Made by a program: the position numbers and the translations under genes. This document shows, one piece after another, positions 46,785 to 54,137 of a stretch of DNA of 61,403 bases. The notes below the pieces were generated by a model. It made no database searches, was not told the origin of the DNA, and saw only the letters and a list, made by a program, of their open reading frames with translations. The stretch covers positions 1 to 61,403 of the forward strand of contig JADFDI010000014.1 of the NCBI GenBank assembly GCA_018262985.1. Reading direction: 5' to 3'. Source of the stretch: Spirochaetota bacterium. GTDB lineage: Bacteria; Spirochaetota; Spirochaetia; Treponematales; UBA12059. Position 1 is the stretch's first letter, and the number at the start of each line of letters is the position of its first letter.

Positions 46785-47068
46785 GGCGCGCCCTCGTCGT
46801 CGTCGCCATCGTACTCGTCCCGCTCGCGCTGATCCTCGCGGTGGCGCAGGCGCGGGCCTTCGACGTCCTCCGCAGGGAAGCCCTGGCCCTCGAGGAGCGC
46901 CAGAAGGAGCTGATCGAGGAGAACCGCAAGCTGGTGGCCGCCCTGGCGGCCCTTTCGTCGCGCGAGCGCGTCGGGGAAGCCGCGTCCGGGGACGAGGAAC
47001 TCGTGCCCTTCTCGCCGGAAACGACCGTCGAGATCGTCGTCACGACCGAGGGGGAACTCGATGGCTAG
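46781..47068 (+). CDS. ftsL: FtsL-like divisome protein
   Basis: This 95-residue bitopic protein has one membrane helix (about 4-25, ALVVVAIVLVPLALILAVA) and then a coiled coil (about 28-60, leucine-spaced, EERQKELIEENRKLVAAL) facing the periplasm. Sequence conservation in FtsL is poor, so the call rests on topology and on its position between rsmH and murF. FtsL partners FtsQ/DivIB in the divisome. It overlaps rsmH by 4 and murF by 8 bases. Confidence 0.8.
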   Translation: MRRALVVVAIVLVPLALILAVAQARAFDVLRREALALEERQKELIEENRKLVAALAALSSRERVGEAASGDEELVPFSPETTVEIVVTTEGELDG

Positions 47069-49585: not shown

Positions 49586-50767
49586 GTGGCCTTCGACGTC
49601 GAACGCGCGCCGCGCCCCGCCCGGGGCGACGCCCAGATCCTGGCGGCCCTCTTCCTGCTCGCGGGGACCGGGATCGCCGCGCTCTACTCGGCCTCGTACG
49701 GCTACGCCCAGGCGCTCGGCAAGGCGCCCGAGCACTTCGTGACGCGGCAGGCGGCCTTCGCCCTGGCGGGGCTGCTCGTGTTCCTGGTCTCCGCCGGCCT
49801 GCCGCTTCCGAAGCTCCGTTCCGCGAGCGCCGTCATCACCATCGCCGGCATCGCGCTCCTCGTCCTGCCCTTCGTGCCCGGCATCGGCGTGCACCGGAAC
49901 GGAGCCTCGCGCTGGTTCCAGGTGGCGGGGCAGACCTTCCAGCCCTCCGAGGCGTGGAAGCTAGCGTCCATCCTGTACCTGGCGCACATCTTCGACAAGA
50001 AGGCCGAGCGCATGGGCGACGCGATCAACGCCGCGCTGCCGCCGCTCCTCCTCGTGGCGCTCGGAACCGGCCTCGTGTACGCCCAGAACGACTTCTCCAC
50101 CTCCGTGCTGATCGGCGTCTCCGCCCTGGCCGTGTTCTGGGCCGCCGGCACGCCGCTCAGCTTCTTCGCCGCCATGGCCAGCCTCGCCGCGCCGCTCGCC
50201 GCCCTCTCGGTGCTCACGAGCGACTTCCGCCTGAAGCGCATCCTTTCCTTCGTGTTCCCGACCCACCAGAGCGAGAGCATCGGCTACCAGGTGGCCGCCT
50301 CGACGCGGGCGATAGCCTCTGGCGGCTTCCTCGGCAAGGGCATCGGCCTCGGCACGCTCAAGGCCTCGAGCGTGCCGGAAATCCACTCGGACTTCATCGT
50401 GGCGGCGATCGGCGAGGAGGCCGGCTTCCTCGGCGTGCTCGCCCTCGCCGCGCTCTGGGCCTGGTTCGCGTGGCGCGGCTTCCGCGTGGCCTTTCGGTCC
50501 GAGGGACGCTACGAGTCGCTGCTGGCCTTCGGCCTGTCGGTATCGCTCGCGCTCCAGGCCCTCGTGAACGTCGCGGTGGCCTCCGGCTCGGTGCCCGCGA
50601 CGGGCATTCCGCTGCCGTTCTTCTCCGCGGGCGGTTCCTCGCTCCTCTCGAGCGCCTGCGCCGCGGGCCTCCTCTACAACCTTTCGCGCGGCGTCGCGAC
50701 GGCGCCCGCGGACGCCGCCGCGGCCGAACCTTCGTACGCCCTCGGCGCGGAGGCCTTCCGTGGCTGA
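49586..50767 (+). CDS. ftsW: FtsW/RodA-type SEDS protein
   Basis: SEDS proteins polymerise peptidoglycan glycan strands with a partner penicillin-binding protein; the location in the division cluster suggests FtsW. The 393-residue protein has about ten membrane helices and the signatures GASRWFQVAGQTFQPSE, YAQNDFSTS, SIGYQVAASTRAIASGGFLGKG and the SEDS-specific PATGIPLPFFSAGGSS. It starts at GTG 49586 after GGAAGCGGG. Its 8-base overlap with ftsQ (GTGGCTGA) couples their translation. No partner PBP gene is in the window. Confidence 0.93.
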   Translation: MAFDVERAPRPARGDAQILAALFLLAGTGIAALYSASYGYAQALGKAPEHFVTRQAAFALAGLLVFLVSAGLPLPKLRSASAVITIAGIALLVLPFVPGIGVHRNGASRWFQVAGQTFQPSEAWKLASILYLAHIFDKKAERMGDAINAALPPLLLVALGTGLVYAQNDFSTSVLIGVSALAVFWAAGTPLSFFAAMASLAAPLAALSVLTSDFRLKRILSFVFPTHQSESIGYQVAASTRAIASGGFLGKGIGLGTLKASSVPEIHSDFIVAAIGEEAGFLGVLALAALWAWFAWRGFRVAFRSEGRYESLLAFGLSVSLALQALVNVAVASGSVPATGIPLPFFSAGGSSLLSSACAAGLLYNLSRGVATAPADAAAAEPSYALGAEAFRG

Positions 50768-51695
50768 GAGCGCGCTGGGCACCTCCTGGGCCGCGAGGGA
50801 TTGGGCCGCCGACGCTCCCGCCGTCGCGAAGCGCCGCGACCCGCCTCCCTACCGAGCCATCGGCCGCGGCGAACCGGTCGCGAAGCGGGCCGGAGGGCGC
50901 CCGCCCCGCTTCGGCGGCGCATCCGCGGACGGGGCCGAGCGGGGACTCCAGACCTTCCTCGCCATGCTGATCGTGGCGCTGGTGGCCGTATCGGCGGCGG
51001 GCTTGCTCATGGCTCCGGCCATGCGGGCCAGGACGGTCGAGGTCCAGGGCGCCCCCGCCTCGCTCGCCGCCGAACTGGCGGCGCTCGCCGGGCTCGAAGG
51101 GGAGCCCTGGCTCTTTTCGGTGGATCTAGGGGCCGTCGAGGCCGCGGTCGCGGCGCACCCGCGCGTGCGCACCGTCCGGGCCGAGCGGCGGCTGCCCTCG
51201 GCGGTCGCGCTCTCCGTGGAGCTCCGCTCCGGCGTGGCGCTGGCCCTGGGCGAGCTCGAAGGCCGCACGCGCGCCTTCCTCGTCGACGCCGAGGGCGTCG
51301 TCTTCGGGGAGGCCGACGGACGGGAAGCCGCCACGCTGCCGATCGTGTCGGGCCTTCGCTTCGAGGATTTCCGCTACGGCGTCCGCCTGCCGGCCGAGAC
51401 CCTGCCGGTGCTCGAGGCCCTCGAGGCGCTCGAGAAGGATTCGCCGGAGCTGCTCGCCGCGCTCTCGGAGCTCCGCCTGGTCAGGCGGGCTTCCGGCGCC
51501 TTCGAGCTCCTCGTCTACACCATGGATTATTCGACGCCCGCGAGAACGGGCGCCGCCTTGAGCGGGGACCTCCTCCGCTCCATCCTGCTCGTGCTCGACG
51601 TCATCGAGGCCCGCGGCGACGCGGACCCGGAGGGCGAGCTCGATTTCCGCACGGGTACGGTGGTCTACCGGACCAAGGGGGGACTCTCTGGCTGA
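50760..51695 (+). CDS. ftsQ: FtsQ/DivIB-type divisome protein
   Basis: This 311-residue bitopic protein has a basic cytoplasmic tail of about 65 residues, a single membrane helix (about 66-84, LQTFLAMLIVALVAVSAAGLL), a POTRA-like domain (about 90-160, with VEVQGAP and VRTVRAERRLPSAVALSVE), and a beta domain. FtsQ/DivIB recruits FtsL and its partners at the septum. Divergent sequence is normal for the family; order between ftsW and ftsA supports the call. It starts at GTG 50760. Confidence 0.87.
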   Translation: MAESALGTSWAARDWAADAPAVAKRRDPPPYRAIGRGEPVAKRAGGRPPRFGGASADGAERGLQTFLAMLIVALVAVSAAGLLMAPAMRARTVEVQGAPASLAAELAALAGLEGEPWLFSVDLGAVEAAVAAHPRVRTVRAERRLPSAVALSVELRSGVALALGELEGRTRAFLVDAEGVVFGEADGREAATLPIVSGLRFEDFRYGVRLPAETLPVLEALEALEKDSPELLAALSELRLVRRASGAFELLVYTMDYSTPARTGAALSGDLLRSILLVLDVIEARGDADPEGELDFRTGTVVYRTKGGLSG

Positions 51696-52923
51696 GAACC
51701 TGATCGTCGGCCTCGATGTCGGTACCGCGAAAACCTGCGCGGTCATCGGGGAATTCAATGAAAACGGGGTGCTCGAGATCACCGGCGTCGGCGCCGCTCC
51801 CTCCACGGGACTCAGGCGAGGCGTCGTGGTGAACATCGAGGCCACCCTGAAGTCGGTCGCCCAGGCAGTCGAGGCCGCCGAGCTCATGTCGGGCCGCGAG
51901 GTGCGCGAGCTGCGCGTCGGCGTCTCCGGCGCCAACATCGAGGGCATCAACTCGCGCGGCGTGGTGGCGGTCACGGGCAAGGGCCGCGAGATCGGGCGCG
52001 AGGACGTCGCGCGCGTCATCGAGGCGGCGCGGGCCGTGGCGGTGCCCATGGACCGCGAGATCCTGCACGTCATCCCGCAGAGCTACATCGTGGACGACCA
52101 GAAGGGCATCCGCGATCCGCTCGACATGATCGGAGTGCGCCTCGAGGCCGAGGTGCACATCATCACCGGCTCGGTGACCACGGCGCAGAACCTCGTGCGC
52201 TGCGTGAACCGCGCGGGCTTCAAGGTGGACGGCCTCGTGCTGCAGAGCCTCGCGGCCTCGCGCGCGGTGCTGACCTCCGACGAGCGCGAGCTCGGCTGCC
52301 TGGTGATCGACCTCGGGGCCGGCACCACCGACATACTGGTCTGGGACGACGGGGCGCCCTACTATACGGCGGTGGTGCCGGTCGGGCAGGCCCAGGTGAC
52401 GAACGACCTGTCGATCATGCTGAGCGTTCCGATGGACGCCGCCGAGCGGCTCAAGCTCGAGTCGGGATCCTGCTGGATACGCCAGGTCGAGATGGACGAG
52501 ACCGTGATCATCCCGGGGCTCGGCGGCAGACCGCCGCAGGAAGTGCCGCGAGCCCGCGTGGCCGCGGTCATCCAGCCGCGCATGGAGGAGATCCTCCGCC
52601 TGGCCCGCCGCAAGGTCGAGGAGCGCGGCTTCTGGAATCGCGTGAAGGGCGGCGTCGTGCTCGTCGGCGGCGGCGCGCTCATGCCGGGCGCCTGTGAGCT
52701 CGCGCAGGACCTGCTCGGCCTCTCCGCGCGCGTCGGTTTCCCCGTGGGCTCCGGCGGCCTCGTGGACGAATTCCGGAGTCCCGCCTACGCGACGGCCGTG
52801 GGCCTCGTCCTGCTCGGCGCGGAGGCGGTGCCGGCGGAGGCGCGCGAGGGGCGCGAGCCGGAACGGGAGCGCCGCTCGCCGCTCTCGCGCCTGGCGGAAT
52901 GGGTGCGCAGGGAATTCTTCTAG
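51688..52923 (+). CDS. ftsA: Cell division protein FtsA (CTG start)
   Basis: FtsA is an actin-like protein that anchors FtsZ to the membrane. The first phosphate loop GLDVGTAKTCAVIGE is encoded at 51709-51753, upstream of the first in-frame GTG (51769), so the start must lie earlier. CTG 51688 is the best choice: it follows AAGGGGGGA and makes the same 8-base overlap (CTGGCTGA) as GTGGCTGA at ftsQ. The 411-residue product then has a normal length. Other motifs: VIDLGAGTTDI, VVLVGGGALMPG, and a carboxy-terminal amphipathic helix LSRLAEWVRREFF for membrane binding. Confidence 0.94.
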   Translation: MAENLIVGLDVGTAKTCAVIGEFNENGVLEITGVGAAPSTGLRRGVVVNIEATLKSVAQAVEAAELMSGREVRELRVGVSGANIEGINSRGVVAVTGKGREIGREDVARVIEAARAVAVPMDREILHVIPQSYIVDDQKGIRDPLDMIGVRLEAEVHIITGSVTTAQNLVRCVNRAGFKVDGLVLQSLAASRAVLTSDERELGCLVIDLGAGTTDILVWDDGAPYYTAVVPVGQAQVTNDLSIMLSVPMDAAERLKLESGSCWIRQVEMDETVIIPGLGGRPPQEVPRARVAAVIQPRMEEILRLARRKVEERGFWNRVKGGVVLVGGGALMPGACELAQDLLGLSARVGFPVGSGGLVDEFRSPAYATAVGLVLLGAEAVPAEAREGREPERERRSPLSRLAEWVRREFF

Positions 52924-52958: not shown

Positions 52959-54137
52959 ATGAATATCGAAGTGGTGGAAGAGATGGGCACGAGCCCGACG
53001 GTCATAAAGGTCATCGGCGCGGGCGGCGGCGGGTCGAACGCGGTCAACCGCATGATCGCGGCGGGGGTGCAGAACGTCGACTTCATCGTCGCGAACACTG
53101 ACCTGCAGGCCCTCGAGCGTTCGGACGCTCCGGTCCGGCTCGGCCTGGGCCAGAAGGTGACCCACGGCCTCGGCGCGGGCGGCAAGCCCGAGATCGGCGA
53201 GAAGGCCGCGCTCGAGGACCGCGACGCCATCGCCGCCGCCCTCAAGGGCGCCGACATGGTGTTCGTCACGGCCGGCATGGGCGGCGGCACCGGCACCGGC
53301 TCGGCCCCCGTCATCGCCGCGGTGGCGCGCGAGCTCGGCGCGCTGACCGTCGGCGTGGTCACCCGTCCCTTCGACTTCGAGGGCCGCGTCAAGGCGCGCC
53401 TCGCGGACGAGGGCATCCGCAAGCTGCGCGACGCGGTGGACACCCTCATCGTCATCCCCAACCAGCACCTGCTCAAGATCGTCGAGCGGCGCACCCCGAT
53501 CCGCGAGGCCTTCCGCCTGGCGGACGACGTGCTGCGCCAGGGCGTCCAGGGCATCTCCGACCTGATCACCGTGCCCGGCGAGATCAACATCGACTTCGCC
53601 GACGTGCGCACCGTGATGGAAGGCCGCGGCGACGCCATCATGGGCATCGGCTCGGGCACGGGCGACAACCGCGCGGTCGAGGCCGCCGAGAAGGCCATCT
53701 CGAACCCGCTGCTCGAGGACGCCCGCATCGAGGGCGCGCGCAACATCCTGGTCAACGTCTCCGGCGGCGAGGACCTCTCGCTGACCGAGTTCCAGGAGAT
53801 CGTGCAGATCATCACCGAGAGCTGCGACCCCGAGGCGCTCATCATCCCCGGCATCGTCCACGACGATTCGCTCGAGGACGAGGTGCTGGTGACGGTGATC
53901 GCGACCGGCTTCGAGCGCGCCGCGCCGAGGGAGGAGGCCGCCGCCGCAGCGCCGGTCCGCGAGACCCAGCGCAAGGGGCTCGAGGACTTCCTCTCGACGG
54001 AGGAGTGGCGCCGCATCGCGGATCCCGTGCCGAGCGCCAAGCAGTACCTGCTCGGCAGGAACGAGGTCGCCGACGAGCTCGACATCCCGGCGGTGCTCCG
54101 CGACCGCCGCTTCGTCCAGGAAAGGACCGAGGCCTAG
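52959..54137 (+). CDS. ftsZ: Cell division protein FtsZ
   Basis: FtsZ is the tubulin-like GTPase that forms the division ring. The 392 residues contain [14 protein letters not shown], the tubulin signature [10 protein letters not shown] (near 109-118), the synergy-loop region ending [16 protein letters not shown], and a carboxy-terminal peptide [13 protein letters not shown] that binds FtsA. A run of nine G's lies just before the ATG (52950-52958) and serves as the ribosome site; a polymorphic tract there could change expression. It lies 35 bases after ftsA. Confidence 0.98.

Follow-up and report, generated by a model that had tools for sequence, protein, structure and literature searches.

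In two clades of one spirochaete order ftsA very probably starts at a conserved CTG codon that usually overlaps the end of ftsQ

In Escherichia coli, ftsQ and ftsA were reportedly described as translationally coupled by Mukherjee and Donachie in 1990. The infC gene, which is known for start-codon feedback, starts at AUU in E. coli and is subject to feedback by its product, IF3. Chloroplast genes with non-AUG starts mostly use GUG. Such chloroplast starts are conserved, and the weak start has been viewed as a layer of control kept over long evolution (PMC9845219). As a bacterial start codon, CUG is strongly disfavoured by the initiation machinery. Its output in E. coli is 0.86% of that of AUG, and it makes up 0.024% of bacterial starts (PMC11497404), in keeping with the rarity that an earlier note on the DNA studied here had ascribed to CTG. 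Start-codon reconstructions found 2 of 61,358 ancestral AUG starts to have become CUG (PMC5622118). In Caulobacter crescentus, ribosome profiling assigned CTG starts to 0.7% of mapped coding sequences (PMC4117421), so annotation in general probably misses a share of such starts. We dropped Caulobacter DnaA as a CUG precedent because initiation does not take place at that codon in vivo (PMC8443254).

The window analysed here, a stretch of 61,403 nucleotides, corresponds to contig C5 in a 3.44-Mb spirochaete genome and carries ftsW, ftsQ, ftsA and ftsZ in that order on the + strand. This gene order is that of a dcw cluster, the FtsQ match itself being weak: the 311-aa open reading frame between ftsW and ftsA (50760..51695, + strand, GTG start) matches the NCBIfam FtsQ model with an E-value of 5.6e-5, under the cut-off. 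On the other side of ftsA, ftsZ (52959..54137, + strand; TIGR00065, E 3.1e-129) has an ATG start with its own Shine-Dalgarno (SD) sequence, an arrangement found in all 33 related loci that were readable. The ftsA frame has no stop from the TGA at 51559-51561 until the stop codon at 52921-52923, and it contains no ATG, GTG or TTG within 51562-51768. Judging from this frame, the SD sequence and conservation, ftsA very probably starts at the CTG at 51688..51690 (+ strand), where the codons that follow are GCT GAG AAC CTG ATC GTC GGC CTC GAT GTC GGT ACC (LAENLIVGLDVGT). The resulting gene (51688..52923, + strand) has 411 codons, and its product, with the N-terminus LAENLIVGLDVGTAKT..., matches positions 1-370 of the 371 in TIGR01174 with 452.8 bits (curated cut-off 175.85; E 8.7e-136). 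Numbered from the CTG, residue 5 corresponds to profile position 1, and the alignments with the solved FtsA chains 7q6g, 7q6d and 7q6f begin at residue 3-4. The first canonical in-frame codon, GTG at 51769..51771 (+ strand), lies past the phosphate-binding loop, as the earlier note had claimed; starting there would cost the first 27 residues, the phosphate-1 loop GLDVGTAKT and TIGR01174 positions 1 to about 23, and we rejected it as the true start.

Within the last codons of ftsQ lies the SD stretch AAGGGGGG (51675..51682, + strand), 6 nt from the CTG and with a duplex energy of about -10.8 kcal/mol against the anti-SD. The ftsQ stop codon, TGA at 51693-51695, closes an exact overlap of 8 bases between ftsA start and ftsQ stop, CTGGCTGA (51688..51695, + strand), whose geometry is kept in relatives. 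With an 8-base overlap and an SD inside ftsQ, the junction has the geometry of termination-reinitiation. The earlier note had put the ftsA start at this CTG, within such an overlap, and this structural claim is strongly supported by frame, SD and conservation. It had also likened the junction to three others in the window, ftsW/ftsQ (GTGGCTGA, 50760), ftsL/murF (ATGGCTAG, 47061) and topA/xerC (ATGACTGA, 59207; gene names as in that note), and all three are indeed exactly 8 bases long. The overlaps at 47061, 50760 and 59207 read NTGNNTGA or NTGNNTAG, with ATG, GTG and ATG as their respective starts. This repetition is real but ordinary, as other gene pairs show the same overlap with ATG, GTG or TTG.

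When comparing the ftsA start regions of 174 distinct loci from the window's genome, genomes of the same order and a wider genome collection, we found 102 with CTG and 72 with ATG, GTG or TTG (locus L103, read by eye, is counted as ATG, which there adjoins a CTG called by the script). CTG is limited to two clades of one order, where 102 of 131 distinct loci have it and the other 29 have ATG, GTG or TTG; among the 174 loci it is absent from family f3, Borrelia, Alkalispirochaeta and the other outgroups. The window's clade (groups f1, f2 and f4) has CTG in 46 of 47 loci, with TTG at the identical position in the remaining one, and both of the other species of the window's genus that were examined have CTG. 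In the second clade, f5, CTG is found in 56 of 84 loci, the others having ATG (18), TTG (6) or GTG (4). Loci with CTG include that of Treponema (Spirochaeta) caldaria H1 (G013), a finished isolate genome in a single contig of 3,239,340 bases, and that of G044, presumably T. azotonutricium ZAS-9; G017, which we take to be T. primitia ZAS-2, has TTG. The T. caldaria H1 genome was finished at 310x coverage and annotated with Prodigal (PMC3739177).

A comparison of the junction in related genomes had been proposed in the earlier note, and the loci that lack CTG in the two clades have a standard start in its place: TTG in L127, L068 and L182, GTG in L186 and L162, and ATG in L183 and others. That note had named a conserved ATG elsewhere in the ftsA of relatives as a refuting result; none was found among the 174 loci. 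A sequencing or assembly error that turned G into C at 51688 is excluded for practical purposes, since the same C occurs in more than 100 distinct loci, the finished 310x T. caldaria H1 genome among them. On the FtsA tree, f3 joins f5, and a single gain of CTG followed by loss in f3 costs the same as two gains. Some f3 loci with ATG or TTG have the same SD spacing and 8-base overlap, and since these are common to the clades, a single origin appears to be the simpler reading.

The aligned codon behaves as a start and not as a mere leucine codon. At the junction, each of the 131 loci in the two clades has NTG, and CTC, CTT, CTA and TTA are found at this position in 0 of 131, whereas at conserved internal leucine columns of FtsA the share of CTG among the CTG-start loci is 18-71%. 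GGRGG precedes the CTG in 102 of 102 CTG loci, at 6 nt in 99 and 5 nt in 3, and columns -13 to -7 relative to the CTG are nearly invariant. Two marks of a genuine start with a non-standard codon are present, namely an SD at proper spacing (102/102) and, in relatives, a standard codon at the identical position. Use of a different start, be it an upstream non-ATG codon, ATC 51703, CTG 51700 or, giving a shortened FtsA, GTG 51769, is very improbable: near-cognate in-frame codons do exist, but no candidate is conserved with SD spacing, the ATG, GTG and TTG of relatives sit at the CTG position, and GTG 51769 loses the nucleotide-binding loop. An upstream in-frame ATG, GTG or TTG is absent in 66 of the 102 CTG loci, and across all 102 just one upstream canonical codon has a strong SD.

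Substitutions were counted by parsimony on an FtsA tree (FastTree, moderate support), and all tests use this same tree. Among the 88 loci with the 8-base overlap, the C, T and G of the start changed 4, 0 and 0 times, as against 15-34 changes at upstream FtsQ third positions outside the SD; in the window's clade the corresponding counts are 1, 0 and 0 against a median of 15 (range 7-20). This contrast between the start bases and the FtsQ third positions is large, despite the single shared tree. The T of the CTG is itself an FtsQ third codon position, where change is silent, yet it changed 0 times. Variable columns follow the ftsQ frame upstream and the ftsA frame from +8, so that codon periodicity switches at the CTG. 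We rejected a programmed frameshift fusing FtsQ to FtsA, in which the SD and the aligned standard starts would be pointless; moreover, the end of FtsQ is periplasmic and FtsA is cytoplasmic. A relaxed initiator tRNA of the M1 type (PMC11497404) was likewise rejected because the normal GGG/CCC anticodon stem is kept, and there is thus no sign of generally relaxed initiation.

In the window's clade every CTG locus (46 of 46) has the 8-base geometry, as do 38 of 56 in f5, where 11 more of the 56 have an overlap of 11 bases; a few CTG starts lie 1-13 nt beyond the ftsQ stop, with no overlap. In raw counts, 95 of 99 CTG loci have an overlap of 8 or 11 bases versus 7 of 28 loci with other starts, an association driven by related loci: with relatedness controlled, only 6 supported independent pairs are available, and the sign test is not significant. 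In the f5 group of L162, L167, L168 and L183-L189, ftsA has GTG or ATG and the ftsQ stop is often displaced (31-32 nt upstream, or in a TAATG junction), which means that in these lineages the start codon changed along with the geometry of the junction.

Selection on the C itself is less clear from these alignments. In ftsQ this C occupies the second position of the last codon but one. Its single change among the 47 loci of the window's clade, compared with 5-14 in neighbouring columns of the FtsQ tail, is within the range of FtsQ second codon positions overall (0-11 changes, median 3). In f5 there were 13 changes among the four start codons ATG, GTG, TTG and CTG, and this repeated replacement implies that CTG is not indispensable there. 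The CTG might then be a true start but a passive relic, held in place by the ftsQ overlap and by a strong SD that compensates for the poor start, with no selection for a low FtsA level, an explanation that we consider rather unlikely. It would account for the frequent loss of CTG in f5 and for an SD that is stronger at CTG (median -11.7 over all loci) than at ATG (-8.0) or GTG (-7.3), a difference that within f5 narrows to -11.7 versus -11.1 for the other starts, and it fits the known SD compensation of weak starts (PMC5622118). Against it, the penultimate FtsQ residue may be S, P, A, L, V, T or R, so that FtsQ tolerates other second bases, while in the window's clade the C has undergone one change against 5-14 for the nearby tail columns. 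In addition, TTG and GTG are found in the same overlap, so an exit is open but rarely used in the window's clade.

We instead favour, with moderate confidence and from comparative sequence evidence, a coupled start of low output as the best overall explanation. In this model, translation of ftsA would begin at CTG 51688 with the initiator fMet-tRNA, and the purine-rich end of ftsQ would act as a near-perfect SD 6 nt 5' of the CTG. A ribosome terminating at the ftsQ TGA, two bases past the CTG, would already stand over both SD and start, and could reinitiate. It is known that 70S ribosomes, on terminating, can reach an SD close by through scanning and start again there (PMC5972666). Because CTG would pair poorly with the initiator tRNA, FtsA would be made in only a fraction of these passages, and with ftsZ having its own SD and ATG, FtsA would be held low and tied to FtsQ synthesis. 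Division in E. coli needs a correct FtsA:FtsZ ratio (PMC5587298), and the CTG plausibly sets a low ratio through coupling to ftsQ, as the earlier note had suggested. That this coupled, low-output function is the reason for the CTG seems to us slightly favoured, and low output may be what selection keeps; so strong an SD argues against pure down-regulation of ftsA. More tentatively, the CTG, the near-perfect SD and the 8-base overlap could together form a selected device, too weak for free ribosomes and served by those terminating on ftsQ, which would have kept FtsA proportional to FtsQ since the ancestor of most of the order, with similar non-standard starts in other low-copy proteins such as FliO.

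In 980 genes over 1.2 Mb of T. caldaria, CTG wins at the level of the control codons overall, with fliO and ftsA as the top two genes. In a survey for further CTG starts in the window's own G+C-rich genome (G000), control codons win equally often. Eight f5 genomes (L297-L300 and L302-L305) have GGGAGGGG, 4 nt and then CTG at a fliO-like gene, and three f1 genomes (L356, L358 and L360) also have a CTG start at this gene, which in other genomes has TTG or ATG; in the f5 and f1 genomes alike the CTG follows GGRGGGG by 4 nt. The order thus appears to have a conserved CTG start in fliO as well as in ftsA. The copy in the window's genome (G000:C21:112479-113090, - strand; loci L306/L349) has no standard start near its SD. 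All three assemblies of the window's genus (L306/L349, L350 and L351) read GGGAGGGG, AATC and ACG at this gene (GGGAGGGGAATC-ACG), and there fliO apparently starts at ACG where relatives have CTG, TTG or ATG. Stable non-standard starts in this order are therefore not confined to ftsA, but the genes that have them look few. In the window, infC (IF3), in the 26690 region, has a TTG start behind GGGGAGG, and the same TTG is found in relatives.

We also considered whether the ftsA CTG could be a regulatory start set by the supply of initiation factors and initiator tRNA, which would link FtsA to the translational state of the cell in the manner of infC, AUU and IF3. The initiation machinery's discrimination against CUG (PMC11497404) and the conserved weak TTG start of infC here are in its favour, but infC has TTG and not AUU, and we regard this possibility as improbable.

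The persistence of a CTG start through much of an order, in a gene essential for division, shows that such starts can be stable. Where gene finders allow only ATG, GTG and TTG, we predict that FtsA is called too short, with loss of the nucleotide-binding loop. The ftsA CTG is also a natural system for studying how the FtsA:FtsZ ratio is set by coupling combined with a weak start. In a literature search covering sources other than subscription journals, we found no report of a CTG/CUG start of ftsA; a rare start and coupling by overlap are of a known kind, and within the same scope we did not find their conserved combination at ftsA described. What is distinctive here is the conservation of CTG in an essential gene. 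As in C. crescentus, CTG serves as a genuine bacterial start codon, but those starts are a list from one genome, whereas here a single essential gene keeps CTG throughout much of an order. E. coli infC is likewise an essential gene whose non-standard start is kept for a reason; its AUU, however, works by feedback through IF3, and FtsA is no initiation factor. The chloroplast genes similarly retain a weak start over long evolution, but in an organelle, and theirs has been proposed to serve high turnover and not a low level. The likeness to ftsQ/ftsA of E. coli includes ftsA following ftsQ, a stop/start overlap and, in the model proposed here, FtsA being less abundant than FtsZ; there, however, ftsA has an ATG with a weak site, whereas the start here is a CTG that has a near-perfect SD and lies in an overlap of 8 bases.
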